Assembly (NCBI GenBank): GCA_947044365.1
Contig: OX345651.1
Span: 4,803,926-4,867,925 of the forward strand
DNA: 64,000 bases
Reading direction: 5' to 3'
Source: Petrosia ficiformis
Lineage: Eukaryota; Porifera; Demospongiae; Haplosclerida; Petrosiidae
A model generated the notes under the pieces. It searched no databases and was not told where the DNA came from. It worked only from the letters and a program-made list of their open reading frames with translations. The translations under genes were made by a program, and so were the position numbers. Each line of letters opens with the position of its first letter. Within the stretch, counting starts at the first letter, position 1. Shown piece after piece: positions 619 through 63,855 of the stretch.

Positions 619-3600
619 TTAAATATACATTCCAAGACCCAGTGGTGCTTGCATATACGTGGGATTCCATTCGTAATCCCATTTTTCTTTGGTGAACACA
701 ATCTTTATTGTGTCGTCCTCTTCCTGTTCAGTTCTCACTAAATCAGTTGGTATATAAGTATATTTGGACTGTGTATCATCTACCATGGTATCTTCCTCAG
801 ATGAAGAACCTCTTTCACTCTCATATTGAAAGCTTAGTTTATTGTATGGTCCTGTTGGCTGATCTAACAAGTTATATGCACCTCCAAACCAATTTGAGGA
901 GTTTCTAGAATGATCTAGTTTACTGTAATGTCGATTAGGGCTGTTGAGAGAAGAGTCGGGGTCCTCTGGATTGGTAGGTGTGTTTGTTCCTAAACATTCA
1001 GATTCTCTCGATCCACTATAATCGGTTTCACTTGTTGAAGTGGGAACTGCTAATAGCAGAGGAGGAGGAAGTGGAAGGGAAGGAAAAGGTTTTGAATCTT
1101 CATTTAAAAGTTTCTCAGCAGGTTTTGTAGATGTTTTATAACAATTACTCTTAGATTCCATTGATGCAACGAATGTATCGCTAATTGTTGAATAACGATG
1201 ATCTATTGGAGGTGTCATTTCAGGTTGTGTATCAATTACGCCTCTATTATTTTCACTGAAATGATTAAGTTCATAAGGCGTTTGAAGGGTAGTCCCATCT
1301 GGAAACCCACGACTGTCATCCAAGAGATGTTTTGCAGAAGATCTATAGAAATGGTGAAGTGATACTAAATATTCATATATTATAATTATTATAAACATTG
1401 GCTGTCAGAAAAGAAGCACTCTATCATTAAATTGTAATGTTTACAAACTACAATCAAATTAATTAAAATTAATTACACATAAAAGGCATATATTATGCTC
1501 TAATCACTTTAAATTTAATACCAAGTTAATACAGAAACCTACCAGGACTCCCGGCCCTGTTAGGCTGATGGGGCTTCCTGGTAAAATATTTTGCAAAAAA
1601 ATTGTGATTATATATAATAGCAAATCAGTCTAACCTTACTGAAGACATTCTATAGAAATTGCTATCTCTATTCCCACCTGTTAAAAAAAGATTTTAAAAT
1701 AATGCATTTTGTTGTGATATATATCGTTAGGTAAAGGGGAGGGGCCATTAATAATACAAGTGGTGTCACATGACCAGATAAACCTAATGAAGGATTTTGA
1801 TGTACCCATGGTTGTCAAGAACTAGGATGTAGTTATAATTATGCTACTATCAAAAACCACATATTTACAAGAATGCTGCTACTAGTCTCATCCCCAGACT
1901 CCACCCCTTTTTGAGATCAAATGGTGGAGAGGAGTCTGGGGACGAGACTATGCTGCTACCAGAAATGGATGATTCGTTATATACTATGTAATTTATCTGT
2001 ATTGTGATACAAACGCATGTGTTTATGCTTTTGTAAATGCTATCTTGATGTTATCATCAACTACACCCTTCCCTGCTAGGTATATTTGGCTGGCTCTATA
2101 AGATTATGTTATGTTTAGTTGCAAACATCATCCATACATGTATCCCTAAAGTTGTTTGATGTGGCCACAATATATTGTTCTGTTATAATTGAATATATTA
2201 CATAATGTAACATGATATGCTGACTGATGTTGATGAGTGCATAGTACTAAGGTGTATTGCTAATTGTGTGGGCTTTCATCCATATATGAATGATTATCGT
2301 GGGTGGGAATTCATTTGGAAGTCTAGTGGTTAATTAGTCAGTTAATTACATTATAATACTAAATTAGTGTTTCTTGTATTGGTGGATAATTTAATCAATT
2401 AGTGAAAGTCTTGCTGTGCCAGGATAAACATTTTCTCACAACAGAGAGGAAATGCCCATCATACCCACTCTCTGTTGACAATTAAAGACATTTGTTGATC
2501 ATATCAACTCGATATATAAACACAATTAAAGTGTGCTTACTTTCAACTTTTGTTTTTCTTGGCCTGGGTCTCTTCCATGTAAGTAGAACAATAATCACTA
2601 CTAATAGCACTATGACTAATATCAGCATCACTATTAACATACACACGGCTAATATTAACAGGTCTGATCCATCATCATTCGATTGTCCTTCAACTGGTGT
2701 TTGAGAGGCTAATGGATTTGTAGTAGATGTTGTGTCAGCGAACATTATAGTTGTAGTGTGTGTTGTGATTGGTTCACTGGTTGACATCACAGGTGTATTG
2801 GTCAGGGGACTATTGATCAATGACACAACCGATGATATTGGTGGTACACGGGTTGATGGTATTGCTACAATAGTTGATGTAGTTGATATTGATACACTGG
2901 GTGATATAAGTATACTGGTTGATGATATTGGTACACTGGCCATGGGTGATGTAAACATACTAGTTGATGACGTTGGTACGCTAGTTAATGTAGGTATACT
3001 GATTGGTATACTAGTTGATAATGGTACACTGGATAATGGTAAAATTGTACTGGTTGATGTCACAGGTATACTGGTTACTATTGTATTAACACTGTTTGGA
3101 GAGGGTGACTCTATTAAAATTATAAATAATTGTTAATATTTATTAACTTCATAATATATATACAAACCTATTGTATGACTTGATGATGTAGCTACTGGTG
3201 GAGATTCTGATAACATCATTCCAGCAGGTCCACTTAATGAGGGACTTAGAGGTTGATTTGTAGTTGTCATGACAACTGGCATTGATGTTGTGATAGTAGG
3301 AGGACTGGTTGGTGGTTGGTCTTCACATACAGAAACAACGTTATCAAATTTGGCATCAGAACAAGTATTCAATTGATTGTCGTATTCTTCAGGTCTTAGT
3401 ATAGTGATTCCATCACTGTACACACCTGTTGGCATTCCATTAACAATTACTTGACACCAGTAGTCACCCAACATGTTATCAGTAAATCCATGATTTATTA
3501 ATTGTCCACCAAAATAACTTGTCTCACTTTCAATACCTGATGAACGAAACTCTGGTGTACCATGATTTTTAATCGTGTTATTGATATATCTTTGGAACCA

Positions 3601-4060
3601 GTGTACTTCAAACTCATCTGACCCACTCAGTCTTTCTGCTCTACATGAAACTTGTAGTCTCCAGACAGGAGGATTGACTCTAGTATCAAACGGATTACAG
3701 TTTAAATCAGCAGGTGGTTGCCTGATAAACTGAAATGTCGTGCATTGACCTGAATATATATATAAACATGTACATATTATATAATTTATCTTCCTGACTT
3801 GACAATTATATAATATTTGTTATACAACTTTTGGCTCAAGATTCAATTTTACTACATAAAATTCCATAATGGTAAATCTAGTCCAAAAACATCAATTGAA
3901 TTTCATATACAATAATATATAAACTATATATAACTAATAGTGTATTAGTCTTTACAAATAATTCATATATACAAGATTAGTTAACAAACTCACCATAACA
4001 TCTGTGACTACACAGCAAGGTCAATAGTAGCAGAAGTGAAATCAGTTTTTTAAGCACCAT
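619..4060 (-). CDS. G1: type A single-Ig receptor with long YxxL tail
   Basis: Exons on the minus strand, 5' to 3': 4060-3994, 3749-3168, 3110-2541, 1677-1635, 1342-619; total 1986 nt, 661 residues. Residues 1-22 are a signal peptide (MVLKKLISLLLLLTLLCSHR). The Ig exon has the type A framework: QCTTFQF, LNCNPFD, a Cys in VSCRAERL, the core Trp in EVHWFQ and the GDYWC motif, then an extra Cys pair (NTC...SVC). Residues 217-366 are a Ser/Thr/Pro stalk. TM is about 367-395, followed by basic KRPRPRK. The 43-nt linker encodes the SNFYRMSSV segment. The tail (about 240 residues) carries YSTI, YSKL, YNLL, YNKL and YTYI, typical SH2-docking motifs. It is the only type A ectodomain here with a long tail. 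The plasma-membrane signalling role is inferred from architecture. Donors and acceptors all fit GT/AG and phases agree. Confidence 0.8.
1541..1582. repeat. GC-rich hairpin in G1 intron
   Basis: A 42-nt GC-rich island in AT-rich intron DNA. ACCAGGA at the left pairs with TCCTGGT at the right, and an inner CCGGCCC faces GGGGC. It may be a repeat fragment or a structured RNA element. A shorter similar string (GGAGTCCCGGCTG) occurs near 57282 in a G21 intron. Confidence 0.4.
1874..1959. mobile_element. 68-bp miniature inverted-repeat element with 9-bp target duplication
   Basis: Bases 1883-1950 have near-perfect terminal inverted repeats: TAGTCTCATCCCCAGACTCC against GGAGTCTGGGGACGAGACTA. They are flanked by the direct repeat TGCTGCTAC at 1874-1882 and 1951-1959. 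This is the structure of a non-autonomous DNA transposon inserted in the G1 intron. An 8-9 bp duplication suggests a hAT- or Mutator-like source, which is inference. Confidence 0.7.
2800..3070 (-). repeat. Minisatellite encoding the G1 Ser/Thr stalk
   Basis: The stalk exon is made of imperfect units of about 24-30 nt. On the plus strand they read as variants of GTATACTGGTTGATGATATTG and encode runs such as STSILISPSVSIS. The same units appear in the stalk exons of G4 (12451-12672) and G7 (22615-22836) in smaller number. The stalk is therefore longer in G1 (570-nt exon) than in G4 and G7 (222 nt). Such stalks are usually O-glycosylated. Confidence 0.6.
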
Positions 4061-4445: not shown

Positions 4446-7243
4446 TCAGTTCTTCTTTACTGGTACATAGTTAGGATCTCGTTCATAGTTTCCCAAATGT
4501 CTTGTAGAAGGAGGTACCAGTGGAATAGCCTTGGTGCCACTTGTTTTTGTAACTCCATCATGTGATTCTGAAATGGTTGAATAATCATAATGTTCTAAAT
4601 CTGCTGAGTGCAGGCTATCAGTCTTTACTGATTCAATGGTTGAATATCGAGGATCATCAAATAATTTCTCCAGAGAATGTTTTGAATGTGGAGATTGACG
4701 TAATGGCACCTCCATTGTATTATATACCTCCTTACCAACATATCCTTCGTGATCTAGTTTCCTGTAATCCTGTGTAGATTGTGATTCATTTCCCATTGAA
4801 TAGTGCATTTGATTGTAATCTTGAAGGGGTAGTCTGTCTTGTGGTCGGCTGTGGCAATCACCATCACCTGAGAAGGCTTCCATACTATTATATATTTCTT
4901 TGCTAGAGTTTCCACTACGATCTAGTTTACTGTAATATTGTATAGATGGTGGCTCATTTACCATTGAATAAGGGGTGCTGTAGTGATCATCATGACCCAA
5001 TGTATCTTTGTCAAAGTTTCCACTGCGATCTAGTTTCCTGTAATCCTGTGTAGGTTGTGATTCATTTCCCATTGAATAGTCCAGTTGATTGTAATCTTGA
5101 AGGGGTGGTCTGTCTTGTGGTGAGTGGTGGTGATCACCATGACCCGAGGAGACTTCCATACTGTTATACATTTGTTTGCTAAAGTTTCCACTACGATCTA
5201 GTTTACTGTAATCTTGTATAGGTGGTGGATCATTTACCATTGAATAAGGAGTGCTGTAGTGATCATCATGACCCAATGTATCTGTGTAAATGTTTCCAGT
5301 GCGATCCAGTTTACTGTAATCTTGTATTGGTGATAGTTCCTGCTTCGTTGAATGTTCTAGTTGATTGTACACTTGTGTAGGCAATATGTCTGGCTGTCCT
5401 ATAGTAGTGTAGTGATCGACACGAAGTATACTGTACTCTTCTGTACGAACAGGTTTTATTGATAAAGGTGACGGTTGTCTTAAGGAGCTGTAGCTTTGCT
5501 CAATTGGAACATCAGAATCAACAAAGGTGGTAGTAGATGGAAGAGAAGGTGGATATTTTATTCCAGACCATGGGTTTTCTTGAGTTGGGTTAGGTGGAAA
5601 GGAATCACTGATGGTTGGGTAACGATGGACTAATGGAGGTGTTAGTGCAGTTCCTTGTTGAGTAACATCATTGGAGTTGTTAACAAGAGGACGTGTAGAT
5701 GATCTGTTATATGACATAGGGGAAAAATAGAAGATACAAAATAATATGTACTATGATTTATACATAATTGTGTTAATATGTACTATATAGCTACATATAT
5801 GGATCATAACTCATTTTGTCTGACTCAGCTTACCGCATTAGTGCTAGTATTTATTACCTGAATTACTTTTCTATGGCTCACCTGATTGAAGACATACGAA
5901 GTATATGTCCATTACTATCTGTATATTGTATGTGTATGTGAGAACATTATGTATGTGCGTGTTATGTACATATGTGTATGTACATAATATGTTTATGTGT
6001 GTGTGTAGGTGTATGTGTGTTTTGTACATATGTGTACATGTGTGTATGTACATATATGTGTATGTGTGTGTGTGTCAAAAGGGAATTCATTATGAAGGAT
6101 GTTTATAGTAAATAATTATACTCTACATATAGTTTATTTCTGTATTATGCAGTTTAATACAATACAATACAGTACTACACAAACCTGATTTTCTGTTATT
6201 TTTCCGTCCATTTTTGATACATATCAAAACACCAATTATAATTAGTAGTATTATAATAAGTAAGAACATAGCCCCTCCAATAGAACCAGCTATTATTATT
6301 AATTGTGTATTATCACCACTATTTGACTGACTTGGAACTATACTAGAACTCGGACTGGAACTAGGACTAGAACTAGGACTGGGGGTATCAGAGGAAGAGG
6401 AAAACGAATATGCTTCAGAACTCAAAGTCACTAATTTTTGAATTGATGAACAATCAGACATATCTGTTGCACTTGCTCGTATTACTTGTTCAGTGGTTAT
6501 ATAATTAGTTTCACTAGGAATAAGTTGAGAAAAAGGAGACATATTTTCTGTTAAACTTTTAGTTTTTGATGGTTGACCTATAACGTATTGAGATGAGGAA
6601 GACGTACTCTCTGTTAAACTTAGTTGTACTCCTTCATTCGTTGTTGGATTAGTACGTTGTTGAGATGAAGAGAAGGAAGAGCATAAGGAAATGGAAGATT
6701 GAATACCATCAGCACATTTTGAAGTAGTCACTGTAATGATTCCACTACATGTTGATAGTGTGTCATAATCTTCAGGATCACGTATCACCAGTATATCACT
6801 CTTTCCAAGGTATATATTTGGTTGTGTGCTTGTGACAATCACCTGACACCAGTATTCACCCAACATAGACTCATCAAATGGTGTATTAACCCATTGTCTT
6901 CCGAATTCAACTAATTCTCTGTTAGGAGTTTTTTGAACCTTAACTTGACCAAGATCAATTATTTCATTTTCATTGTTCTTATGAAACCAATGTACATCAA
7001 ACTGATTTGTTCCTGATATTCTTCGTACATCACATGATACTATCAGATGCCATGTAGCTGTCTTTACATCATACGGGTTACAATTGAGTTCAGTTGGTGG
7101 TTGAGAAGTAAATTGAAACTGTATACACTGACCTACATATGATAATAATATAATAAACAGTTATTATAAATACATTTATACTAACCTGATCCTTTCTGAG
7201 TCAGTTTCAAAATTAACAGAATCAAAACCAGCCAGAACTTCAT
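4446..7243 (-). CDS. G2: type B single-Ig receptor with repeat-rich tail I
   Basis: Exons 7243-7186, 7132-6185, 5918-5882, 5703-4446; 2301 nt, 766 residues. Signal peptide 1-19 (MKFWLVLILLILKLTQKGS). The second exon encodes the type B Ig domain (GQCIQFQF, LNCNPYD, Cys in IVSCDVRR, Trp in FDVHWFHKNN, LGEYWCQV), the Cys pair (TCSG...KCAD), a Ser-rich stalk and a TM at about 297-325. The 37-nt linker gives DSNGHILRMSSI. The tail of about 420 residues holds two copies of a 92-residue unit with YSKL, YNQL, YRKL and YSTPYSM, then FDDPRYSTI and an invariant C-terminus ending YVPVKKN. Its closest paralog is G6 (tail exon of equal length), then G8 (one more unit). Tyrosine-dependent signalling is inferred. 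Confidence 0.82.
5925..6080. repeat. TG-rich microsatellite in G2 intron
   Basis: Imperfect TGTATGTGTG / GTACATATG repeats between the linker and Ig exons. The same repeat sits at the same place in G6 (about 18670-18820) and G8 (about 25940-26090) with different lengths, so it predates the duplications. Confidence 0.75.
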
Positions 7244-7306
7244 CTTGTAGTTGTAGAATAGCTTGCAGAATGTGTGTCACACAGGAAAATATTGTACTTG
7301 TTGTAC

Positions 7307-7322
7307 TAGTATATATGTATAG
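7307..7322 (-). promoter_or_regulatory. Putative TATA-type core promoter of G2
   Basis: On the minus strand an ACTATACATATATACTAG-like element lies about 65-80 bp before the ATG. It sits in a block that is conserved upstream of G2, G3, G8 and G9. Conservation in recent duplicates is weak proof, and no start site can be read from sequence. Confidence 0.35.
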
Positions 7323-8536: not shown

Positions 8537-8813
8537 CAGAGTATTAATTATCATAAATATGTAATGCAAAATAATCGATCCAATTTGTCAGTCACTGAAT
8601 TAATAATTCATTCAGTGACTCAATATTCAGAGAATATTGTACTTATTGATCTGTTCACGTACTGAAAATTAAAACTATTATGAATGAAGCTATAGATAAG
8701 ACACACACTTTTATAATTTATGCATGTTAATAATATTATAAATATTAAATTTTATAACTACAGCAAAGCTAACTTCACTTGTAGTATTTACAAAGTAGTT
8801 TGTGTAATATATT

Positions 8814-10172
8814 CTATTTCGTTAAAGTTGTATAGATGTTATCAAAGGTTTGTTTAGTACAATCTAATGATTGATATCTCTCCTCTTGTGTTGTGATTAA
8901 AGTTGTATAGTTGTTATCAGAGGTTTGTTTAGTACAATCCAATGATTGATATCTCTCCTCTTGTGTTGTGACTATCTCTTTATTAATTACACTGTAGTAG
9001 TGACTGTTATCACTCACAGGGGTTCTGGTAATATTATTAGACTCATCTAGAATGGTCACATATTCAACTGGTTCCACTGGAGTAATTGTTTTCAACCTGT
9101 AATACAAATATATGTTCATCTATTAAGAGACGTACATTATTATTGTAACTCACTGATTACAAGGGTCTGATGATTTTATATCCTCAGGAGTTACTGTATA
9201 TATTCCACATACATAAAAAATGATAAATTATACATAAGGTTATTATTAACTTACCATAATATATTGTATCTTCAATATTTTTCTTTCTTTTAATACAAAG
9301 AATCACGAGACAAGAAATGACTAACAATACTCCTAACATCATTATTATTATAAATACTATTATAATAACAATATAGTAACTTGCTAATCCACTGTCATTA
9401 CTTTTCACAGGAGAGTTGGAGGGAGTGTTAATTTGTATTGAAGAATATGTTTTTATGTTAGAAGACATATTCTCTGTTGCACTTGTAGTTGTTGTTTGTT
9501 GAGATATAAGATGTTGAGATAAGAAAGACATACTCTCCGTTGAACTTATAATTAGTTGCACTTCTCCAGTTGTAGTACAGGAAGAGCTTGAGGAAACACA
9601 CAAAGAAGATTGAATACCATCAGCACATTTTGAAGTAGGCACTGAAATGATCCCGCTACATCTTGGTAGTTCTGTGTCATAATCTTCAGGATCACGTATC
9701 ATCAGTATATCACTCTTTCCAAGGTATATATTTGGTTGTGTGCTTGTGACAATCACCTGACACCAGTATTCACCCAACATAGACTCATCAAATGGTATAT
9801 TATTATCTCTCCGTTGTGTTCCGAATACAACTAATTCTCTGTTAGGAGTTTCTCCTTGAACCTCAACTTGACCAAGATCAATTATTTCATTTTGATTGTT
9901 CTTATGAAACCAATGTACATCAAACTGATCTGTTCCTGATATTCTTTGTACACCACATGATACTTGTAGATTCCATACTGCAGGATCTACTCTCACATCA
10001 TATGGGTTACAATTGAGTTCAGTTGGTGGTTGAGAAGTAAATTGAAACTGTATACACTGACCTACATATGATAATAATATAATAAACAGTTATTATAAAT
10101 ACATTTATACTAACCTGATCCTTTCTGAGTCAGTTTCAAAATTAACAGAATCAAAACCAGACAGATCATCAT
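8814..10172 (-). CDS. G3: type B single-Ig receptor with short ITAM-like tail
   Basis: Exons 10172-10115, 10061-9255, 9193-9154, 9096-8814; 1188 nt, 395 residues. Signal peptide 1-19 (MMICLVLILLILKLTQKGS). The Ig domain has the core Trp (FDVHWFHKNN) and GEYWCQV, then the CSG...KCAD Cys pair and a Ser/Thr stalk. TM is about 249-276, followed by KRKKNIEDTIYY. The linker gives TPEDIKSSDPCNQ. The tail has an ITIM-like VEYVTI, then HYYSVI and two copies of the 25-residue module. In each module YQSL and YTTL are 10 residues apart; modules follow each other with 7 residues between tyrosine motifs. The ligand is unknown. Receptor signalling is inferred from the tyrosine motifs. Confidence 0.82.
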
Positions 10173-11236: not shown

Positions 11237-13619
11237 TTACATTAAAGTTGTATAGTTGTTATCAGAGGTTAGTGTAGTACAATCCAATGATTGATATCTC
11301 TCCTTTTGTGTTGTGATTAAAGTTGTATAGTTGTTATCAGAGGTTTGTTTAGTACAATCCAATGATTGATATCTCTCCTTTTGTGTTGTGATTAAAGTTG
11401 TATAGTTGTTATCAGAGGTTTGTTTAGTACAATCCAATAATTGATATCTCTCCTTTTGTGTTGTGATTAAAGTTGTATAGTTGTTATCAGAGGTTTGTTT
11501 AGTACAATCCAATGATTGATATCTCTCCTCTTGTGTTTTGATTAAAGTTGTATAGTTGTTATCAGAGGTTTGTTTAGTACAATCCAATAATTGATATCTC
11601 TCCTTTTGTGTTGTGACTATCTCTTTATTAATTACACTATAGTAGTGACTGTTATCACTCACAGGGGTTCTGGTAATATTACTAGACTCATCTAGAATGG
11701 TCACATATTCAACTGGTTCCACTGGAGTACTTGTTTTCAACCTGTAACACAATTATATGTTCATTTATTAAGAGACGTACATTATTATTATAACTCACTG
11801 ATTACAAGGGTCTGGTGATATTATAACCTCAGGAGTTACTGCATATACATAAAAATAATAAATTACGTATATATACATAATTTATTAACTTACCATAATA
11901 AATCCTATCTTCAATTGTTTTCTTTCTTTTAATAAAAAGAATCACAAGACAAGAAATGACTAACAATATTCCTAACACTATTATTATTATAGTTGTTGCT
12001 ATTATAATAACAATATAAAAACTCGTTAATCCACTGTCATCACTTTCTAAAAGAGAGTTGGAGGGAGTGTTAATTTGTATTGAAGAATATGTTTTTGTGT
12101 TAGTCTGTGAATTACTACATAAATGTTATTGAGTTCCAAGTATAGAATTTCAAGTAGGGTAATTTTGGCTGTATTAAGGCCATTAAGGATTTCAAGCAGG
12201 GCACCAATCCCTTCAAAAGAAGCATGAACTAATAAGTATACTGATTGGTATACATACTGGTTGATAATGGTACACTGGATAATTGTACTGGTTAATGTCA
12301 CAGGTATACTGGTTACCATTGTATTGACAATGTTTGGATAGGGTGTAAAATTATTAATGTTAACTTCATATTATGTTATAATATTTATAATTTATATATA
12401 ATAATATTATATATAATTTTATATTATATATAAAATTATACTATACAAACCTATACTGGTTGATGGTATTGCTACAATGGTTGATGTAGTTGATATTGAT
12501 ACACTGGGTGATATAAGTATACTGGTTGATAATATTTGTACACTGGGTGATGGAAGTATACTGATTGGTATACGGGGTACACTGGATAATGTTACAATTG
12601 TACTGGTTGATGTCACAGGTATACTGGTGACCATTGTATTAACACTGTTTGGAGAGAGTGACTCTTCGACTTCTATTAAAATTATAAATAATTATTAATA
12701 ATAATTATTATAAGCCTCATAATATATATACAAACCTATTGTATGACTTGATGGTGTAGCTACTGGTGGAGTTTCTGATAACACCATTCCAGCTGGTCCA
12801 CTTAATGAGGGACTTAGAGGTTGATTTGTAGTTGCCATAACAACTGGCATTGATGTTACATTAGTAGGGGGACTGGTTGGTGGTTGATCTTCACATACGG
12901 AAACAACGTTATTAAATAGAGCGACAGAACAAGTATTCAATTGATCATCGTATTCTTCAGGTCTTAGTATAGTGAATCCATCACTGTACACACCTGTTGG
13001 CATTCCATTAACAATAACTTGACACCAGTAGTCACCCAACAAGTCATCACTAAATCCATGATTTATTAATTGTCTACCAAAATAACTTGTCGCAAATGTA
13101 ATACCTGATGAATAAAACTCTGGTGTACCAAGATTTTCAATCGTGTTATTGATATATCTTTGGAACCAGTGTACTTCAAACTCATCTGACCCACTCAGTC
13201 TTTCTGCTGTACATAAAACACTTAGTCTCCAGACAGCAGGATTGACTTCAGTATCAAACGGATTACAGTTTAAATTAGCAGGTGGTTGCCTGATAAACTG
13301 AAATGTCGTGCATTGACCTGAATACATATATAAACATGTATATATATATATAATTTATCTTCCTGACTTGACGATTATATAATATTTGTAATACAACTTT
13401 TGACTCAAGATTCAATTTTACTACCATAATGGTACATCTAGTCCAAAACATCAATTGAATTTGATATACAATAATATATAAACTATATATAACTAATAGT
13501 GTATTAGTCTTGACAACTAATTCATATATACAAGATTAGTTAACAAACTCACCATAACATCTGTGACTACACTGCATGGTCAATAGTAACAGAAGTGAAA
13601 TCAGTTTTTTAAGCACCAT
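11237..13619 (-). CDS. G4: type A single-Ig receptor with five ITAM-like modules
   Basis: Exons 13619-13553, 13317-12736, 12672-12451, 12046-11894, 11838-11799, 11741-11237; 1569 nt, 522 residues. Signal peptide 1-22; the Ig exon (582 nt, same length as G1) has EVHWFQRY and LLGDYWCQV plus the NTC...SVC pair. A 74-residue Ser/Thr stalk is on its own exon. The TM exon starts at the acceptor CTCTTTTAG before AAAGTGATGAC and gives TM about 300-329 and KRKKTIEDRIYY. The tail has VEYVTI, YYSVI and five near-identical 25-residue units, so ten YxxL motifs with alternating 10- and 7-residue gaps. It joins a type A ectodomain to the tail otherwise found on type B genes. I chose the TM acceptor because only it restores phase 1. 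Confidence 0.78.
11242..11616 (-). repeat. Five 75-bp tandem units encoding YQSL/YTTL modules
   Basis: Direct 75-bp units (25 codons) with only a few differences between copies, mainly YQSL/YQLL and QEER/QKER. Other short tails carry one or two units. Near identity points to recent unequal exchange or slippage. Confidence 0.85.
12047..12340 (-). pseudogene. Intronised coding remnant in G4
   Basis: Directly upstream of the G4 TM exon the reading frame continues through about 23 codons that match type B coding sequence (KTYSSIQINTPSNS), but the inferred acceptor excludes them. Further upstream comes a piece encoding ALLEILNGLNTAKITLLEIL in another frame, then a duplicated stalk-exon start. Copies of the middle piece lie at about 15640-15750, 22290-22420 and 27525-27660. 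The origin of the middle piece is unknown. Confidence 0.5.
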
Positions 13620-33895: not shown

Positions 33896-34338
33896 TTAAA
33901 TGGCTGTGTAATTTGGATTATCAATTGCAGTTTCCATGACAACCATATCTCCTTTGTTTCCCAAATCACTGTATACATGATTGCTAACAGTAGAATACTC
34001 ATCATTAAAACGTGCGTAATCACTATCAGGTCCAGTGTTATTCCAATTTTCTTTTTGATTAGAAAGATGATTACGTTTCAATCTATCGTACCGTTCCTCT
34101 TCATTAATCACACTATAATATGGCTCATGATTTGGACTATGAGGGGCTTGGAGTTCATTACTACTAGATAGTAAAACAGTTTGGAATTCATCTTGAAGGG
34201 GTCTTTGAATGCTTACTGGATCACCATAAGTGTTCACATCTGACCTGTAGAAAAATTATAATATATATATTATATGTATGCATAAGTGTGTACATATGTA
34301 TGATGTATGTATGTATGTATGTATGCATGTATTATATG

Positions 34339-34374
<36 letters not shown>

Positions 34375-49593: not shown

Positions 49594-51305
49594 TTATTTC
49601 ATTAGAGTTGTATAGTCGTTTTCAGAGATTATTGTAGTACATTCCAATGGTTGATAACTCTCCTCTTGTGTTGCGACTATCTCTTTATTAAATACATTGT
49701 AGTAGTGATTGTTATCACTCACAGGGGCTCTGGTAGTATTATTTGATTCCAATGATTTATATTTCTCTTCTTGTGTTGTAATCATATCTTTATTAATTAC
49801 ACTGTAGTAATGATTGTTATCACTCACAGGGGCTCTGGTAGTATTATTTGATTCCAATGATTTATATTTCTCTTCTTGTGTTGTAATCATATCTTTATTA
49901 ATTACGCTGTAGTAGTGACTGCTTTCATTCACAGGGGTTTTACTTAGTTCCAACGATTTATGACTCTCCTCTTGTGATGTGACTATCTCATTATGAATTA
50001 CGCTGTAGTAGTGATTGTTATCGCTCACAGGTGTTCTGGTAAAATTATTTGACTCTTCTAATAAAATGGTCACATACTCTACTGATTCAGTTGGAGTACT
50101 TGTTTTAAACCTGTAACAGAGTTAATGTGTTTATCTTTTAACAGACATACATTATTATTGTAACTCACTGAGTACAAGGGTTTGGTGTTATTATATCGTC
50201 AGGAGTTACTAAATTTCAATAAAAGTATACGTAAAAATATCAAAATAGATTATTATTAACTTACAGTAATAAATCGTATCTTTATTTCTTTTATTTCGTT
50301 TAATGCAAACTATCAGAAAACAAGATATAACTAGCAATATTCCTAACATTATTGTTGTTATTGTAACTGTTATAACAATAATATGGGAACTTGCTAATCC
50401 ACTGTCAGAGGTCATGGAGGGAGTGTTAATTTGTATTGAAGAATATGTTTTTATGTTAGTCTGTGAATTGGTATGTGTTACCAAGAGAGAGGAAGAGGAG
50501 GAAGATGTAGTAAATGAGGAAGAGGAGTATGTTAACACTGTCCATTTTATTGAGGAAGAAAAGGAAGATGAAGAACTTGAGGAGAAGGAAGATGAAGAAC
50601 TTGAGGAGAATGAAGGTGAGGAGGAAAGTAATGAAAAACTTGAGGAAGAGGAGGAGGTAAAGAAAGAAGATGAGGAAAAAGAGGGCAAAAATATGGAAGG
50701 AGAGCTTGAGAATGAAGAAGAGGAAGTAAATGGTTGTATTGTTTGTAAGGTGACTTTTTCATCTGCACATTTTGAAGTAGGTACTGAAACAATTCCACTA
50801 CATGTTGATAGTGTGTCATAATCTTCAGGATCACGTATCATCAATATATCACTCTTTCCAAGGCATGTATTTGGTTGTGTGCTTGTGACAATCACCTGAC
50901 ACCAGTATTCACCCAACATAGACTCATCAAATGGTGTATTAATCCTTTGTGTTCCTAATACAACTAATTCTCTGTTAGAAGATTCTCCTTGAACCTCAAC
51001 TTGACCAAGATCAATTATTTCATTTTCATTGTTCTTATGAAACCAATGTACATCAAACTCATCTGTTCCTGATATTCTTCGTACATCACATGACATTCTC
51101 AGACGCCATACTGCAGGATCTACTCTCACATCATATGGATTACAACTGAGTTCAGTTGGTGGTTGAGAAGTAAATTGAAACTGTATACACTGACCTACAT
51201 ATGATAATAATATAATAAACAGTTATTGTAAATACATTTATACTAACCTGATCCTTTCTGAGTCAGTTTCAAAATTAACAGAATCAAAACTAGACAGAAC
51301 TTCAT
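49594..51305 (-). CDS. G18: type B receptor with a variant modular tail
   Basis: Exons 51305-51248, 51194-50265, 50208-50169, 50110-49594; 1545 nt, 514 residues. Signal peptide 1-19. Ig with FDVHWFHKNN and GEYWCQV; variable segment EVQGESSNRELVVLGTQ; KCAD motif; a stalk of Ser/Phe-rich low-complexity sequence; TM followed by KRNKRNKD. The donor after YY is T|GTAAGT instead of G|GTAAGT. In the tail the repeated unit differs from other short tails: it spans HYYSVIN...EEKYKSLESNN and is repeated about four times, so the YYSVI motif is multiplied rather than YQSL/YTTL. One YTTL ends the protein. Signalling is inferred. Confidence 0.8.
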
Positions 51306-52700: not shown

Positions 52701-52715
52701 TATCTATACTGATAA

Positions 52716-54500
52716 TTATTTACTACACACAGAAGTGTAATTAGGGTTATCAAATACAGTCCCCATATCCATTATCAAGACATCGAATACATGACTGTTA
52801 ATATCAATGGTTGTAGAGCCATCATTAGAACCCACGTGATTATTACCAGACCCAGTGTGTTCCACAATATCGCACTGTTCCTCTTTTGAGATATTGGTGT
52901 GGAATGAATGTAAATCAATGCTACTTGTTTTAGAATATTCTTCATTGGACACTTCGTCACGATGTGTCTTCATTTCATATGATAGTTCATTATGTTTCAA
53001 TCGATCATAACACTCCTCTCCAGTTCTCACATTGCCTTCGATAACCACACTATAATATGGTTCATTACGAGGGGCTCTGAGTTCATTATTAAGGGTTGGT
53101 TTATTATACACAGGTTCATTACTAGTAGATAATACAACGGTTTGAGATTCATCTTGAACGGCCATTTGAACACTTACTGGATGAAGATAATCAACTGGTT
53201 CAGCTAATGGTAATGAAGAGTTGAAACCTGACCTGTATAATACATAAGTATGTATTCATATAATTGTATTATAACTTAAATGTGCAGTCTATAATTATGT
53301 ACATGCATATGTATGTACATATATATTGCATGATGTACTTGTACTATAATGTATATATGTATTGTATATTGTATATTGGACATTATACACACACTAATAG
53401 TAGTATTTATTCCACTCACTGTTTACTCTGTTGTATCTCAGCAGTACTTTCTATGTGTCAATATACAAAAATAAACAATGATTAGTAAATATATATGTTT
53501 TAACTCACCACAGTTATCACCTTTAAACTTATATTTCTTTCTCTTTCTGAAATACAAACAAGACATCACAAGACAAGATGTGATCATCAATATTCCAAAT
53601 ATTATTATAAGAGCAGATATTATAATGACAGTTTGAGGATTTGTTAGTCCACTGTCAATTTCTTGATCATCTTGGGAATGTGATGTTGACAGAGAAGTAC
53701 TATTACTAGTAATTTCCAATACAATATGTGTAATACTAATGTACATTACTGAATGAGTACTGAAAATAGTTAGTAGTGTAGAATTTGTTTTTGAGGAGTT
53801 GAGCACTTCAGTTATAGTTGGTGAATTATCATTATTGGTTTGTGAATTACTATTTGATCCAGTGTTAGTTTGTGAATTTTGAAATGTGGAGTCTTTTAAA
53901 ACTCTGGAGACTGTTGATGATGGTGCTAAAGAACATATTGATGTTATACTAGTCAAATTAGTGAGTGAATCTGCACATTTGCTACTATTTATGTATTGTA
54001 CTCCACTGCATCTATCTAGTGACATGTAGCATTCAGGATCATGTATTGTAAGTACATTACTAATACCATACATATTAATGTTACTATTATTCACCACTTG
54101 ACACCAGTATTCTCCCAACATTGAATTATTGAATGTTGTATTAATCCATTGTTCACCAAATACTGATTTGATTTTCATATTAATTCTCTGTTCCTTAGAA
54201 ACCATAAGATCATTAGTTTCATTTAAATGTCGATGATACCAGTTTATCTTGTATGAGGTATTATCTAGGATTTCGATTTTACATTCTAATTGTAATCTCC
54301 ACATGCTCCGTTGATCAAATGGATTACACTTGAGTTCATCAGGAGGCTCTCTTATAAACTTCACATGACTACACGCACTATTTCCTACAAATAATTAACA
54401 ATACTGTGTTTTCAAGTCAAGAATGTATATACTCACCTTGGGAATCAGCAAATACTACCACAGTTAATAGTATTATTACTTGTCTAGAGAGAGCACTCAT
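52716..54500 (-). CDS. G19: type C receptor with tail IV
   Basis: Exons 54500-54437, 54384-53509, 53450-53420, 53232-52716; 1488 nt, 495 residues. The start ATG is one codon pair later than in relatives, because the usual ATGAAGATG reads ACGAAGATG; signal peptide MSALSRQVIILLTVVVFA. Ig: CSHVKFIREPPDELKCNPFD, Cys in ECKIEI, Trp in INWYHRH, LGEYWCQVV, then RCSG...KCAD. Ser/Thr stalk, TM, FRKRKKYK. Tail: YYSVV, YDRL, EEYSKT, HVFDVL and the end motif FDNPNYTSV, an NPxY-type site. The ITAM pair seen in G12 and G15 is degraded here (YSKT, HSFHTN). Signalling is inferred. Confidence 0.8.
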
Positions 54501-54690: not shown

Positions 54691-56060
54691 CTATTTCATT
54701 AAAGTTGTATAGTTATTATCAGAGGTTAGTTTAGTACAATCCAATGATTGATATCTCTCCTCTTGTGTTTTGATTAAAGTTGTATAGTTGCTATCAGAGG
54801 TTAGCTGAGTACAATCCAATGATTTATATCTCTCCTCTTGTGTTGTGACTACCTTTTTAGTAATCATGGTGTAGTAATTACTGTTATCACTCACAGGGGT
54901 TCTGGTAACATTATTCAGTTCATCTAAAATGGTCAAGTACTCAACTGGTTCAGTCGAAGTACATGTTTTCAACCTGTAAAAATAGTTATGTATGTTTATA
55001 TCTTTAGAGGCCTATACTAATATTATAACTCACGGGTCTGGTGATTTTATACTCTCAGCAGTTACTGTATATATAAAAAATGCATGACAAACTAAACACA
55101 ATGTTATCACTCACTTACCATAATATGTTGTATTTTCAATTTCTTTCTTTCTTTTAACGCAAAGAATCACAAGACAAGAAATGACTAACAATATTCCTAA
55201 CATAATTACTGTAATTGAGACTATTATTATAACAATATAGAAATTTGTTAATCCATTACTAGTTTCCTGACTACTTTGTGGAGTAGATATAGAAAAAGAT
55301 AAAATACTGCCGATATTAATTTCCAAATGATGATCACCAATGCTAGAAGAAGTTATAAATTTTGATTGATAGCCAACACTTGCTTTGAGAGAGCTATATG
55401 CTTTTGTAATAAATAATGTTGATACTTCTATGTTTGTTCCTGCTGATGAAACTACTGTCATTATGTAGGAAGATACTGGTATTGAAGTACATAATGATGT
55501 TTTACTAAGGCTACCACTTCCAAGAGCTACATTAGCACATTTGCTACTCTTTTGAGATTGCATTCCACTGCACGTACTGAGTGACATGTCGTAGCATTCA
55601 GGATGATGTATTGTAACTACATTACTAATACCATTAGTATTATCAGTATTCACAACTTGGCACCAGTATTCTCCCAACATTGATTCATTGAATGATTCAT
55701 TAATCCATTGACTGCCAAACCATGATTGAACTATATTTGTGTTATGCTCAGATTTGACACTAACTGTAACTACAATCCCATATATATCTCTATGATACCA
55801 ATCCAACAAGAACATATTTATGTTTCCCATAACTCTGCATTCCATTTGTAAACTCCATGTATACTGGTCAAATGGATTGCACAAGAGCTCATTAGGTGGT
55901 TCTTTTAGATACCTTGGTTTATTACACTCTATATAATTAAAACTTGTGTAAAAATACAGTATTAATACTTAGTTTAATGAAAATTCTCACCCTCTGTCTC
56001 AGCATATACTAGCACAATTACTATTATCACCAGATGTTTGGTTATCGCAGTCATCTTCAT
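54691..56060 (-). CDS. G20: type C receptor with short ITAM-like tail
   Basis: Exons 56060-55991, 55928-55119, 55064-55034, 54973-54691; 1194 nt, 397 residues. Signal peptide 1-23 (MKMTAITKHLVIIVIVLVYA). Ig: CNKPRYLKEPPNELLCNPFD, Cys in QMECRVMG, Trp in LDWYHRD, LGEYWCQVV, then TCSG...KCAN. Its TM exon ends KRKKEIENTTYY, like type B genes, while the Ig is type C, so it looks like a chimera. The linker is 31 nt instead of 40; 9 bases were lost but a new donor (CCC|GTGAGT) keeps phase. Tail: VEYLTI, YYTMI, YKSL/YTTL and YQSL/YTTL modules. Signalling is inferred. Confidence 0.8.
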
Positions 56061-56248: not shown

Positions 56249-59200
56249 TTATTTGGTTACTGTAGTGTAGCTATTGTCAGGAGTCAGTTTAGTACGGTCT
56301 AAAGACTGATACCCATGAGATCCAAACTCGCTATTTATTAAACTCATCATCTCCATCTCAGTAGTATGCTTCATATGTTGAATTTTAGGAGGGACAGTAG
56401 GAAGACTGTTAGGTGTGCTCTCAGGAGTTACATCCTCCTCTTTGTCCTGTTTAGTACGAAGAGTTGATATAAAGTTAGGATCCATTTCATAAGTTCCTAG
56501 TGCAGCAATGCGAAGTATTTCTTCATTTTTATCAGTACCAGAACTAGCTATAGTACCTGGTACATTTGTATTTTTCTTTCTTTCTCTCAATCTTTGGCGT
56601 AGCTTGATCATATGAGCATATGCGTAAGCATACTCGGAATCTGATGGTTTGGGTTCAAGCTTGTCATACTCCTCAAGACTCTGCTGTTTAGCAGGACTCA
56701 CTCCATCTAAAGAGGATATTGAAGGAGGAGCTTTGGCCGTATATAAAGGAGAATAATTTGGATCATCAAATAAACGATCATATGAATCCTTTTTGCCATC
56801 TTTCTCCATATCTTTCCCTTTTTCTTCTTCAGTAAACATCAGCTCATCCAACTCCTCCATGTACTTATCAAGTGTCTGATAAATATGGCTACCTGGACTC
56901 TGAATTGATAAACGAGCTAAATTAGTATCCTGGGACAGCCGCGAGGAAGTAGTCAATGGGTGAATATGCAATGGTGTGTTATTATCCTTAATGGGAAGGG
57001 GTTTAGATCTGGTATTAGGGTATTCCATTATAGGGGGTGTGGTCTCATTTGAGACAGTTACTTCTTCCTCCTCCTCTTTCTTGTCATGTGGTTGTACTAA
57101 TGAGTAAGTGCCAATGTATTGTGACTGCTGCGGTACAATGACATGAGGGACGTTACCAGCTGCTGATGAATGGCTGCAGGATAGAACAAATAGCTATGTA
57201 ATTATATCTGTTTGTACAATAGCCCTTCGTGTACGTACATATACATATTTCTGGCTGTAATTGCCTTTCAAACATTTTAAGGAGTCCCGGCTGCATCAAT
57301 ATTGGATTTTACCAAATTGAATATTCTGACAACTGACAATATACGTAACTAGACAAATAACCAAATACCGATCCGATATAACCCTCTAGTATATATATAT
57401 ACATGTATATAACTATAATTATATATAACTGATTCAATCAATGTATTTCTCAATTATTATATTTGAACATGTGCAAGGAGAGTGACGTTCAAGAAAGGAA
57501 TGCATTTTGTATTGTATATAAATCATAATAAAGAAATGTATACATAATACTGATTTATGTGAGGTTAATCTCAATATCTCATTACTTAATAACTATAAAT
57601 ACATACATACAAGTTACATATATCTTTACCGAGTCTCATCTTTGTGATATATGTGCCTTATTTGGGTATCTCCTGTAATAAATAGGGATCATTATAAACT
57701 ATCATTAGTAAGGTAGTATGTTGACACATGAATATTTTGATATTTCTGCATTATATATAACAAACAATTGTATAATTTTAACAACATCTGCCAAGTTAAA
57801 TAGCCTACATATGCAAAACGTTTACATAGAATAGTCAAAACAAATGAGTATGTGTATAATTATGTATTCTAAAATACCTATTCAAAATTCACGTTTATTT
57901 TGCTTCCTTGCGTGTGATGTTGTATTAATAATATCAAAATAATAAACTATATATATAATTATGTGTATTCTGTCACAACAGGTTTTTACTATATATCAAA
58001 ATGCCTACATTATACATAGTGTACATATCAATACACTCGCTGACAAATGAATACTAAACATCATGATATTATACGTAAGTTATAAACCTTCAGTCAAAGT
58101 ACACAATAATACACAAATAAAGAAATGCCTTACCTACTTCATCCCTATGTGGCATTGTTTTCTTTTTCATTAATTTTTCACGACACAGATAGATTATAAT
58201 AATAGTAAGAACACATGTGATCAAACCCAGAAATACACACAAACCAACAAATAAGTAAAGCCATATTGAAAGATCTATATCATTTGATGTGTCTCGTGAA
58301 AAACCCCTGTAATTAAGAATAAACATTATTCACTTGGCATATCTTCATAATATATACACATACATATACATATATATATATAAGTACATACATACATAAG
58401 TATGTACATAAGTTTATGTATATACATATACATACGTACATACATACATACTTACATCATACATACATTCATACATACATACATACATACACACATACAT
58501 ACATACATGTACATACTTACATACATACATATATCTGTGCATGCATATATACGTACCTCTCTGGTGGCGGCAGAAGTGGAGAATGGAATATTGATTGCGA
58601 GGGATGAGGAGTAGATGAGGGAATAACTAGTGAACTACTACTGCTGTTCATGGAGATATTGCGTGATGGTTGACTACATGATAACATGTTTCGATAAGCT
58701 GACTCATTTTTCAAACAGAAAACATCACTGGATTGTTCAATCGAAATTGGTACTCCATTAAGCCATGGTCGGCAGTTGTAACAGCCTTGATCCATCTTAC
58801 TCACATTATTAATCACTAAATTCATTTTTCGATATACAGTAGTTTGATTTTGTTTCCCCTCTTTACTTGGGCTGTACCTTTTAAACACAAATTCATACTT
58901 ATCCTCTCCCACATATGTGTCACATTTGTGATAGGGATAAATTTGACAAGAATTTGTTTTTGGATTCATCCCGAGGGGGGTCCAATACCAAAACACGAAC
59001 AAGTCAAATGGAGAATTTAGGCCCTGTGGTTCTTCAATTGTACATAATAACTCAAGTTTTTCTCTATAGGGATTACATATGAGATCAAATGAAGAGGGAT
59101 CAACAGGATAGTTTTGGGTTTGAGATGCTGACAATGAAAAAAAAAGACACCATAATTATATATTTTATGCATAGTACATGTATATTCAATAAAAATGAAG

Positions 59201-60004: not shown

Positions 60005-61172
60005 TCAAAGGTTCACAACATCATATTGACTCTCCATATTCATGAGGTCCTCTGACTGACTTGGGATTTCGGGTATTTCTTCATTTGTTAATCTATTGTA
60101 AAGAGTTTCAAATGCAGAAAATGGAGCCGTTGAAGTTGTTGGATTGGATACATTATCATAAAAGCCTAGCACTTCTTTTTTATTCGTTTCAGTACTTTTT
60201 GGAGGGTTGAAGTCACGATGTAGCACATCGTAATCATCTTTATTAGTCATATCTTCATATGTCCCTACAGCTGATGGGGTGGGTGTGGTTGTTGGGAGAG
60301 CTGGGATGTTAAACTCCAGCGGTGATTTTTTCTTCTTTTTTGTTTTATCAACAGAAGCATACAGTACAGCTGAGGTATCTTGAGGTGTGGTACTTGATGC
60401 TATCAAAGGAGGAAGAGGAGGGGCAGGAGGTGGAACTCCCTCATTATTTGTAGATTTATACCCATAATTCGATACTTGTGCTTTATTGTCTTTACTGGAA
60501 GAAGTATCTATTATCATATCATACATTCCTTCCATTGGTTCATCTTGAAGAGTAGGAGCAGAGTTGGGAATTGCTTCTGATCTCACTAGGAGATCGTATG
60601 AACCCTCTTTCATATTTTCAATCTGTAGATCTGTACTATTTGTATGCATGAAATATATGTATGTACATACGTACATTCTTGTATATACGTATATATATAT
60701 ATATATATGCTATATGTACGTACATATAGATATTATGTACATGTGTATTAGTATGATTGTATGTATGTATATACATAATGTATGTATGTTAATATGTATA
60801 ACTATAATTATGACTACGAAAATGTTTTTACCTTTTCACTTCTTCGAGAACCAACCCATCTTCAGGTGTATCTGATAAATTGTATATAACCATGAATATG
60901 TATATATAAAATTATTATAATATAGGTTTAAATTTATAGTGATAAAAACTCTCACCTTTTCTTGATTGTATAGTATACTTCATTTTCTTTGTCCTTTTCT
61001 TTAAGATGTAACAGCAACAGGTGACTAATATAATTGATAGTATAACTACAGCAATTATTAGAGCTATATATGTCGCCAGTACAAATCGACCTAACCAATA
61101 ATCGTCACTACACAAGATATCACACGTTTCAGAATCCAGTGTATCTTCACATTTCGTTTCACAACCTGACAT
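60005..61172 (-). CDS. G22: Cys-rich single-pass protein with Pro/Tyr-rich tail, no Ig domain
   Basis: Exons 61172-60956, 60871-60832, 60635-60005; 888 nt, 295 residues from the ATG at 61172. The N-terminus has two CxxxC pairs (GCETKC and CDILCSDD), then a TM at about 30-57 (VLATYIALIIAVVILSII) ending in a Cys-Cys-Cys run, and basic KKRTKKMK. The linker exon (TPEDGLVLEEVK) enters phase 1 and leaves phase 2 like those of the Ig genes. The tail carries YDLL, YDMI, YASV, YDVL, YNRL and a proline run PPPAPPLPPL fit for SH3 or WW domains. No signal peptide is visible; the frame stays open without Met for about 180 bases upstream, so a missing 5' exon is possible. Confidence 0.62.
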
Positions 61173-61678
61173 GACCTTAGTAATTAATATATGTATTACA
61201 ATACTAAAAGAGCTAGCTATACTAACATTTAACGATCCAACAAGGGAACAAACAGCTGAAATGGTAAATGTGATTCTTGCTACTTCTTTTAAACCAGTAT
61301 TGTCAATATAGTGTATAATATACTGGTATGTATATTATTCATAATTGTAACATAATTATTATATACTTACACATGTTTGTTCTGCAGTATGGGGAATTTA
61401 CTTTCTGTTAGACAAACAGCTTATCATGCATGACAATCACAAACACATGATGTTGTTTGTTTTGGTAAATATATGTTATTTGAAAAATCAACATCACAAC
61501 ATGCTTATATGTACGTATACAGTTGTTGTGATGAACTGATTATTGAAAGTAAACACAATTCATGATATTAAACCTTGTTCATAACTTCATCATACCATAA
61601 AACTAAAAACAAATTAAACAACCTAATTAACAGCTAGGGATAATTAATTCTTTTAACGTTGCCATGGTGATGATGTGT
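61173..61678. other. Upstream region of G22
   Basis: The G22 frame remains open, without Met, to about 61335 (includes ARITFTISAVCSLVGS), which may be an unrecognised upstream exon. Beyond that, AT-rich DNA with no clear feature. Confidence 0.4.
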
Positions 61679-63855
61679 TTATACTTTCATTGGACGAAGA
61701 ACTCTTGGGCAATAAAGCTCCTCCTCTTTCTCCTCCCCCTCGATCTCAACAGAGGTTTCTCGACTGGGTATTTTACTCTCCATAATTTCCAGTAATTGTT
61801 GTAGGCTCATGTATTGCTTGTATTTTTTCTGATTCTCTATTAGGTCATCACCAGTTGGTGGTGTGGACTTTGAACGTACCATTATCGGTGAGGTGCTCTT
61901 GTTACCAATTGATACGTGTTCTTGAGTGTCCTGAAGATTGTGTAAGGTTAGATCATCTTCTGGAATTGGATTTAACATATGAGTAGGTGGAATGCAAGTG
62001 GGGGATATTAATGATAGTCTGGTGTATTTTGGATCATCAAAAATGTCATCTGCAGACTGCGATCTTATTATTTTATCCTGTCCTTCTAGTTCACTAGATT
62101 CATCCATAATTTGAGGAAGTTTTGGTGAAATGGTAACACGTCCAGTGATGTTCACATTAGCTTTATGAGGTTTTCTCTTAGGGGATAGATCCGTTTCTAG
62201 TTTGAGACCTTCCATCATAGGTTCCAATTCATCATAATCATGCGAATCATCCGATACATAACTTACAGTTGTACTCTTACCCAAAGAACTTTCAAAATCA
62301 CTGGACCCTCCGCTGAACAGTCGAGAATGGTAAGGGTTGCTTATCCTCCCATTACTCTTAGTAGATAACTCAAGGTCACCGGAAGGCGCGCCTGAAATAT
62401 GAGGCAATTGATGTGGGGGTGAATTGAATACAGATGAGTTACTTCGCACGGATGATTCCAAATTGTTAGAAGCCTCGGTTTTGGGAATGTCATTACTATT
62501 AGTGGATGATTCAAAATCACTACTACTAGACAATTTCATTTTACGAGCTTGATGTTGGCTAGAGTCATAGTTTTGTAAAACAAGACAGAGAAGTGGATAA
62601 TCAGACATTGAGCTGAAAAAGGAAATAATATTTAAACTAATGACATTACAAATCATCAAAATTTAATTTATATAGTGATATATATACACAACATTAAGTC
62701 ACATACTAAGCTAGGGGAACACCACAGAACATTAATTATAGACATAATATGGTACACCCTTAGTCCCATATACATATATAATTATGTATATATCAGTATT
62801 AGTGTGTTATTATAATTATAATACACACCTTGATTGTTGGACTTCATTAGATTTTGTGTTATCTGGAGAGGTGTAATGGGAAATACAGGTAATTAAAATT
62901 TATTTAGGTATAATTATGTGTATGTACATGTATAAGTACACATATATCTACTTATATGTGTACTTATAGGTGGTCACAAACATCCTCTCCTTTCAAAACT
63001 GCAGATTTATTGTTATAGACAAACATACATACAGTGAAGCTAAGCAAACATATACTCAAGACTAAATCTTTATATATGCCCTTAGTACAGAAGTGGCTGG
63101 AATAAATATATGTTAATGAGATATGTCAGTTTAAGAACCTGGCTGCTATGTATATAATTATATATATATGGAAATGTATACATACAAATCAGTATACACA
63201 TAATTAGTATATACATACAAACTATATATACCCTTATTTCTTTTTGGCGACAACAGAGGTTGTGTGTGTCTGTGTGGTGATGACTGAGGTTGTATCTGTC
63301 TTTTTGGTGATATTTGAGGTGGTGTTTGTCTCTTTGGTGACTGAGGCTGCGTTGTTTGTACTTGAACACTAGTTGGTGGCACAGGGGATCTTTTATGTTT
63401 GTTTCTTTTCCTTTTTCTGTCTGCCAAACTTCGTTGGCACATTATTCCAACAGCTGCCACCAATATTATTATTATTAACACTAGAAACATTATCACACCA
63501 GCTATAATGTATATATTTTTCAATTGAGAAAATACTGCAGGATCTTTGTTCCCTGAAGTTGACACTGGAGTAGAGGTTTGTGTTTGAGTAGTTGACATCA
63601 CTGTGCTTCGAGAATCAAAGGAAGAACTGGTAGAGAAAGGAGAGGAGGTGGAGAAGGAGGAGGCGGACATTGATGCTGATAGTAATGAAGAGGATGTCAT
63701 TGATTGTGCTTGTGTACCGGATGTAGTAATTGGATTGCTTGTTTGAGAGCTGCTAATAATTGTACTTAGCATTGATGAACTTATCATAAGACTTCTCGAT
63801 GGAATCAAAAAAGGAGTAAACATATCTGAACTTGGCAGCTGACTTGAAACAGACG
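61679..63855 (-). CDS. G23: 3' part of a stalk-TM-tail receptor (5' end missing)
   Basis: Exons 63855-63232, 62862-62829, 62612-61679. The first visible exon enters in phase 1, so signal and ectodomain exons must lie beyond the window or unrecognised before 64000. It encodes a Ser/Thr stalk, a TM (IYIIAGVIMFLVLIIIILVA) and a basic juxtamembrane stretch with four SPKR/SPHR repeats. The linker (NTKSNEVQQS) has the array's phases. The tail of about 310 residues has DFESS repeats, YDELEPM, FDDPKYTRL and YMSL, and ends in RPMKV. The FDDPxY motif links it to G2, G8, G10, G17 and G21. Whether it has an Ig domain cannot be seen. Confidence 0.65.

Follow-up and report, generated by a model that had tools for sequence, protein, structure and literature searches.

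The Alr complex of Hydractinia is a cluster of type I single-pass receptor genes of the immunoglobulin (Ig) superfamily (IgSF), with V-set and I-set domains and many pseudogenes (PMC11999971, PMC11067881), whose products carry tyrosine motifs of the immunoreceptor activation (ITAM) or inhibition (ITIM) type (PMC12065747). IgSF receptors with ITIM and hemITAM motifs are also present in fuhc, the allorecognition locus of Botryllus (PMC12065747), and the salmonid NILT genes, which form a tight multigene cluster, encode one or two V-type Ig domains together with an ITAM or ITIMs. We have analyzed a 64,000-nucleotide stretch of the genome of the sponge Petrosia ficiformis (the window; C16:4803926-4867925 in a genome of 191,215,263 bases and 29 contigs), which contains a one-strand array of 23 gene units. 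Judging from gene sequences and structure models, this array is probably (we would say at about 0.7) a multigene locus for type I cell-surface, diversified signalling recognition receptors.

The first-pass annotation of the window had compared its genomic style with that of the Alr, KIR/LILR and NITR clusters, a resemblance that we retain (for Alr, see PMC11999971, PMC11067881, PMC12065747). It had also described these genes as a set that it did not recognize: they are indeed tandem, modular, mostly single-Ig transmembrane (TM) receptors with tyrosine tails, but this design lies near published single-V ITAM/ITIM clusters such as NILT. The locus is one of clustered tyrosine-motif IgSF receptors and may work by design like the Alr or NILT clusters. 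As for Alr, whose members, like the sponge Ig domains, were reportedly recognized through structure prediction rather than plain sequence match, the likeness extends to the ITAM/ITIM-type motifs, here by pattern only. By contrast, Alr2 has three extracellular Ig-like domains (PMC10815962) and the sponge genes one each, and Alr1 and Alr2 are proven allodeterminants, whereas the sponge array is known from its genes and resembles them by design. Likewise, NILT is a vertebrate family, similar by design and not by descent, and fuhc is a single-locus tunicate system, similar by description only.

Other receptor families offer a more partial comparison. The paired receptors KIR/LILR share with the array the placing of related ectodomains on different signalling ends, but activating forms of the KIR type, which have a charged residue in the TM segment, find no counterpart, the TM segment being uncharged in 22 of the 23 units (the exception, u17, is a relic). 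Indeed, no adaptor-pairing form was seen in the array, because all tail classes carry tyrosines in addition to this lack of charge. VCBPs, secreted proteins with two V domains and a chitin-binding domain, are not matched either, the sponge units having one Ig domain and a TM segment. Aggregation factors and the Geodia Ig adhesion proteins are, like the products of the array, sponge proteins proposed for cell recognition (PMC11999971, PMC12065747), but the aggregation factor is an extracellular proteoglycan complex (PMC11999971). The Geodia proteins have two Ig domains and are not known to be encoded by an array. No description of a sponge Ig/ITAM array was found among the titles and opening lines of abstracts listed in searches of open-licence papers; related genomic resources are a Podocoryna genome preprint (PMC13119343) and haplosclerid transcriptomes (PMC4704026).

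Composition of the array

With a profile derived from 17 seed exons, 19 Ig exons were found in the window, all of them on the minus strand, in keeping with the single minus-strand family first proposed. E values ranged from 1e-48 to 1e-69 for 16 exons and from 1e-39 to 5e-38 for those of u12 and u13, while the u7 exon was recovered as two pieces (2e-32 and 9e-12). These scores are partly obtained by construction, since all exons except those of u5 and u7 (17 of 19) were seeds; as an independent check, the u18 Ig protein used as a single query recovered all 19 at E <=5e-7 in a whole-genome search. Sixteen of the 19 alignable exons are open and three are broken, by two stops (u5), one stop (u16) or a frameshift (u7), so that intact and broken copies are intermixed. 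Four further units complete the array: u21, with a divergent Ig domain; u17, which keeps its signal-peptide exon and in which the Ig exon is interrupted shortly after its start and mostly deleted; u22, for which an Ig exon was looked for within the window and not found; and u23, cut by the window edge. The initial count of 23 head-to-tail units is therefore borne out, but these are not 23 Ig receptors, and a single Ig domain per unit is found in most units but not in u17 or u22. The array is real within the window, and the family runs on beyond its right end. The units are as follows (window coordinates).

u1, 622..4060, minus strand: T-class Ig (3316-3738), separate stalk/TM exon (2485-3132), type A tail (622-1404), signal peptide at 4060
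u2, 4449..7243, minus strand: IQ-class Ig (6708-7124), N-type TM, type A tail (4449-5750)
u3, 8817..10172, minus strand: IQ-class Ig (9619-10053), B-type TM, 40-nt linker, type B tail (8817-9119)
u4, 11240..13619, minus strand: T-class Ig (12884-13306), B-type TM (11832-12125), type B tail (11240-11752) with five 75-bp repeats
u5, 15073..16808, minus strand: T-class Ig (16065-16487) with two stops, type B tail; broken
u6, 17191..20003, minus strand: IQ-class Ig (19462-19884), N-type TM, type A tail
u7, 21644..23784, minus strand: T-class Ig (23041-23462) with frameshift, type B tail; broken
u8, 24189..27160, minus strand: IQ-class Ig (26613-27041), N-type TM, type A tail with three 276-bp repeats
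u9, 28145..29482, minus strand: mosaic, signal peptide and Ig u10-like, TM and type B tail u14-like
u10, 29854..33551, minus strand: IQ-class Ig (33004-33432), long stalk, N-type TM, type A tail (29854-31047); AlphaFold model m56c49d760e49
u11, 33899..35678, minus strand: Ig (35248-35670), C-type TM, type C tail; signal peptide looked for and not found
u12, 36362..38719, minus strand: short-class Ig (38174-38557), type C tail; AlphaFold model md03cd34b512c
u13, 39872..41353, minus strand: mosaic, u12-like as far as the linker, type B tail exon u14-like
u14, 42075..43486, minus strand: IQ-class Ig (42951-43373), B-type TM, type B tail
u15, 44265..46051, minus strand: Ig (45488-45901), C-type TM, type C tail
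u16, 46244..47588, minus strand: IQ-class Ig (47005-47469) with one stop, B-type TM, type B tail; broken
u17, 48088..49368, minus strand: relic with signal peptide, Ig exon mostly deleted, TM, B-like tail exon (48537-48800) and C-type tail exon (48088-48510)
u18, 49597..51305, minus strand: IQ-class Ig (50758-51186), B-type TM, long type B tail
u19, 52719..54500, minus strand: Ig (53966-54367), C-type TM, type C tail
u20, 54694..56060, minus strand: Ig (55531-55920), B-type TM, type B tail; linker exon looked for and not found
u21, 56252..59155, minus strand: divergent Ig (58520-59155) with CNPY signature (V-set 17.0 bits, cut-off 26), TM (58093-58329), tail (56252-57193) ending in one B-like repeat
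u22, 60008..61334, minus strand: Cys-rich exon with TM (60918-61334), tyrosine tail (60008-60709); Ig not found
u23, 61682..63865, minus strand: Ser/Thr stalk with TM (63161-63865), tail (61682-62662); ectodomain outside the window

The adjacent B-like and C-type tail exons of u17 (48088-48800) are a possible clue to tail-type exchange. In u10, AT-rich tandem repeats with periods of 58, 126 and 248 bp lie between the tail exon and the linker exon (31208-31837).

As read from the genomic sequence, the exons come in the order signal peptide, Ig plus stalk plus TM, short linker of phase 1 to 2, and tyrosine tail. An open signal-peptide exon with a phase-1 donor, followed by a 47-53-nt intron, precedes the Ig exon in all nine IQ-class units, and a phase-1 signal-peptide exon is found in nine other units; that of u17 was recognized by eye, and none was found in u11 and u21, where it was searched for. 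All 15 single-exon units have a phase-1 acceptor before the Ig domain and a phase-1 donor after the TM segment (the scan being restricted to these phases), and the phase-locked linker exon, of 28-40 nt and alike also in sequence, is present in 14 of them, u20 being the one where it was not found. The uniform exon layout first described largely holds for the single-exon units but not for the T class, where Ig and stalk occupy separate exons (u1 and u4 were read in detail). The stalks are 82-208 residues long with 25-56% Ser+Thr in 13/13 measured units, and the most hydrophobic 21-mer, taken as the TM segment, is uncharged except in u17, where it carries one E. Signal peptide, Ser/Thr stalk and TM segment were all features of the first-pass annotation, and all three are borne out, apart from the gaps given above. 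An intact gene product is, as predicted from sequence and model, one V-type Ig domain with a conserved Cys pair, a Ser/Thr-rich stalk, an uncharged TM helix and a cytoplasmic tail rich in YxxL/I motifs.

Segmental duplications are present in the window, the longest spanning 5.2 kb at 91% identity (blastn). We also considered whether the units could be something other than genes of one family. A chance pattern of open frames was rejected on the basis of the profile search, the conserved residues of the open copies and the genome-wide u18 matches, and a single gene with alternative exons because each unit, save for the gaps listed, comes with a signal peptide and a tail exon of its own. A mobile element, for which no dedicated transposon search was made, was dropped because matches of the Ig family were seen on one contig only and the segmental duplications account for the copies. 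Plus-strand profile matches at 8557, 14794 and 27862 were weak (best E 0.005) and judged to be due to chance.

Ig domains, tails and their reassortment

The GEYWC/GDYWC motif originally used to describe the Ig domain is found in 14 of the 16 open copies (GEYWC in 12, GDYWC in two) but the remaining two have GQYWC; the broken u7 copy reads GDYSC. C33, W48 and C96 (the B- and F-strand Cys and the C-strand Trp) are invariant in all 16 and fall on modelled strands 30-39, 44-51 and 92-100, respectively, and the Cys pair that follows the domain, also claimed at first sight, is equally invariant. Structure prediction with AlphaFold, named beforehand as a check, yielded a V-type beta-sandwich with a pLDDT (predicted local distance difference test) of 93, whose best structural matches are the V domains of T-cell receptors, PD-1, CD8 and antibodies. 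The Pfam Ig cut-off was reached by none of the eight window Ig exons scanned (best 17.2 versus 21.8 bits), and the window is absent among the 33 matches listed from a V-set genome search that scored 150 of 296 candidates. In the PDB, the top profile match was to the neuronal adhesion protein DIP-theta and fell short of significance (E 0.023).

The tails fall into three types: type A is long and rich in YSKL/YNQL, with 276-bp repeats in three tails; type B consists of 25-residue repeats in which YQSL and YTTL are ten residues apart; and type C resembles type B by eye. As expected from the tyrosine motifs initially noticed, YxxL/I/V/M motifs exceed those of shuffled sequences (P <0.05) in 21 of the 23 tails. 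ITAM spacing, scored as a pattern match only, occurs in 10/10 type B tails, and at least one such pair is present in 18/23 tails overall. The genome also encodes an open reading frame (ORF) with the arrangement SH2-SH2-tyrosine phosphatase, a second similar gene recognized by eye and, likewise by eye, SH2-kinase ORFs. Tandem SH2 matches were seen at two places, five at C16:744547-768072 and three at C18:3165672-3179564; the one ORF read at each looks by eye like an SH2-tyrosine kinase.

Tail type is uncoupled from Ig phylogeny, and several genes are mosaics with visible breakpoints. Two tail types are found with every one of the four Ig groups (IQ, T, short class and the rest). The tail label takes 8 changes on the tree of 19 Ig rows, in which 8 of 16 inner branches have weak support and long branches come together; the shuffled mean is 8.1, and 122 of 200 shuffles gave a value as low; taken singly, the labels need 7 changes for B (shuffled 6.6), 5 for A (4.6) and 3 for C (3.8). 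A single clade was rejected for both B and A tails (approximately unbiased test, p-AU 5e-62 and 4e-59), while type A is confined to one half of the tree and type C to the other. The breakpoints can be read directly: u9 is u10-like over signal peptide and Ig (93.6%) and u14-like over TM and tail (92.8%); u13 is u12-like down to the linker (89.4%) and u14-like over the tail exon (93.3%); and u4 has a u1-like front (88.9%) and a u14-like rear (88.5%).

The tails and TM segments are constrained, and the Ig domains are near neutral. The pooled ratio of nonsynonymous to synonymous differences (pN/pS) was 0.53 (0.33-0.92) for nine type B tails (first repeat only, u18 excluded), 0.49 (0.41-0.59) for four type A tails (u1 excluded) and 0.46 (0.26-0.84) for five B-type TM segments. 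For eight IQ-class Ig domains, a set that excludes the broken u16 and the other Ig classes, it was 0.84 (0.61-1.18), which is not distinguishable from 1. Pairwise values were 1.14 for T-class u1/u4 and 2.55 for u12/u13, with few changes each, and 0.95 for the close type A tail pair u2/u6. The u12/u13 value (22 nonsynonymous and 2 synonymous changes) was dropped as a sign of positive selection because roughly 20 of 24 changes would be nonsynonymous under neutrality, as reckoned from site counts. Along the Ig domain, pS is high or low in blocks, a pattern that fits gene conversion.

Genome context

All 25 genome matches of the u18 Ig domain (E <=0.01) lie on C16, 20 in the window (the 19 copies, u7 being hit twice) and five outside it, at 3.50, 4.442, 4.445, 4.449 and 4.874 Mb; the 23 matches of the u19 Ig domain are also on C16, and all 16 matches of the type B tail are inside the window. 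Near the outlying copy at about 3.50 Mb (L064:1899-3050), a long open frame with repeated EGYANLH-like and DYSHL-like tyrosine motifs is probably its tail. In the left flank, on the plus strand, is a PTR2-family transporter (PF00854, E 8e-37), and the first 300 bases of the window, where Pfam gave no match, may be its end. In the right flank lies a further, plus-strand family member above the Pfam Ig cut-off (22.4 versus 21.8 bits), along with a minus-strand gene related by eye only, in which a Pfam scan found no match.

Elsewhere, V-set matches above the Pfam cut-off cluster at C14:4.51-4.78 Mb (at least eight), C2:13.86-13.95 Mb (at least four) and C12:5.99-6.01 Mb (at least four), possibly representing further IgSF arrays. 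Contig C29 (18,887 bases) represents mitochondrial DNA: ten TGA codons are read through in its COX1 match, it has an atp9-like ORF, its recognizable genes, named by eye, are on one strand, and ARAGORN found 25 tRNA genes in two halves (12 and 13), the one with anticodon tca being called SeC when the bacterial code was used. Nuclear genes for silicatein-like cathepsin L form a group (L069, at C15:191900-196000, and L057-L062) in which the catalytic position is Cys in some members and Ser in one (CGCSYAFA). An atp9 gene in mitochondrial DNA and silicatein-like proteases are hallmarks of demosponges and indicate one here.

Candidate roles of the array

If the array encodes signalling recognition receptors, the V-like domain would bind a ligand and the receptors would cluster upon binding; Src-type kinases would then phosphorylate the tail tyrosines, and SH2 proteins, such as SHP2-like phosphatases and SH2 kinases, would read the phosphotyrosines as activating or inhibitory signals. 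Duplication, loss and the swapping of Ig modules between tail types would continually generate new head/tail combinations, as might be expected for receptors of variable targets, whether allogeneic cells, microbes or both. An immune or allorecognition role is a putative one, the array being a good candidate for sponge self/non-self recognition. Several observations weigh against the reading as signalling recognition receptors. When compared with known V domains, the Ig model has low TM-scores (0.38-0.47 by query length); of the five AlphaFold models only two are confident, and that of the short-class Ig domain has a pLDDT of 71.6. The tails of u19 and u23 show no significant motif excess over shuffles, and an ITAM-spaced pair was looked for and not found in the tails of u11, u19, u21, u22 and u23. 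The excess of the Ig pN/pS over that of type B tails reached a bootstrap P of 0.066, and positive selection on the Ig domains is not demonstrated by the pooled value. Finally, the evidence base is the genomic sequence of one assembled haplotype.

Two more specific forms of the same explanation, whose likelihoods overlap with it, concern what is recognized. The array might be an allorecognition locus, at which individuals in contact match their polymorphic receptors against each other, as in Hydractinia; the genomic style shared with the Alr complex, where single-pass IgSF genes with V-set and I-set domains cluster among many pseudogenes (PMC11999971, PMC11067881), the ITAM/ITIM motifs that Alr proteins also bear (PMC12065747), the head/tail shuffling and the near-neutral Ig domains all point in this direction, but the authors of a study of Amphimedon grafts saw cell-adhesion genes not to be enriched, and neither immunoglobulin nor receptor occurs as a word in its main text (PMC5450542), while the present sponge candidates are aggregation factors (PMC11999971, PMC12065747). 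This form can be held only tentatively. Equally tentative is the view that the genes encode innate receptors for pathogens or symbionts, expanding under shifting microbial pressure: the oyster protein CgIgIT2, an IgSF member with an ITAM, binds microbes and signals (PMC11999971), yet the Ig pN/pS does not establish positive selection. Arrays shaped by gain, loss and conversion are common among immune receptors.

Roles outside recognition appear less probable. That the products are adhesion or tissue-identity receptors for development and cell sorting, with no self/non-self meaning, agrees with the non-significant match to DIP-theta and with reviews that treat sponge IgSF proteins chiefly as adhesion molecules (PMC11999971), but tandem copies with pseudogenes, variation in tail repeat number and swapped tails would, in our judgement, be unusual in conserved developmental genes, and we consider this improbable. 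A mostly decaying array, with few units expressed and mosaics arising as a by-product of unequal exchange, would explain the broken u5, u7, u16 and u17 and an Ig pN/pS indistinguishable from 1; this is very unlikely, however, given that 16 of 19 Ig exons are open, that tails and TM segments have pN/pS values near 0.5 with intervals below 1, and that phase-matched splice sites are retained.

The reading of the array as a locus for signalling recognition receptors may be carried one speculative step further, to a combinatorial cell-surface recognition locus of sponges. Its V-type Ig heads would be traded between the three classes of tail, and allogeneic or microbial contact would be read by an ITAM/ITIM logic shared with cnidarians, tunicates and vertebrates; this logic would then date to the sponge split. 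The array is in any case a clear case of receptor head/tail reassortment inside one gene cluster. If the reading holds, the convergence on receptors of this kind would come to include sponges, with their V-type Ig domains and ITAM-like tails, and a defined interval of at least 63 kb would be available for direct tests of self/non-self recognition in these animals.

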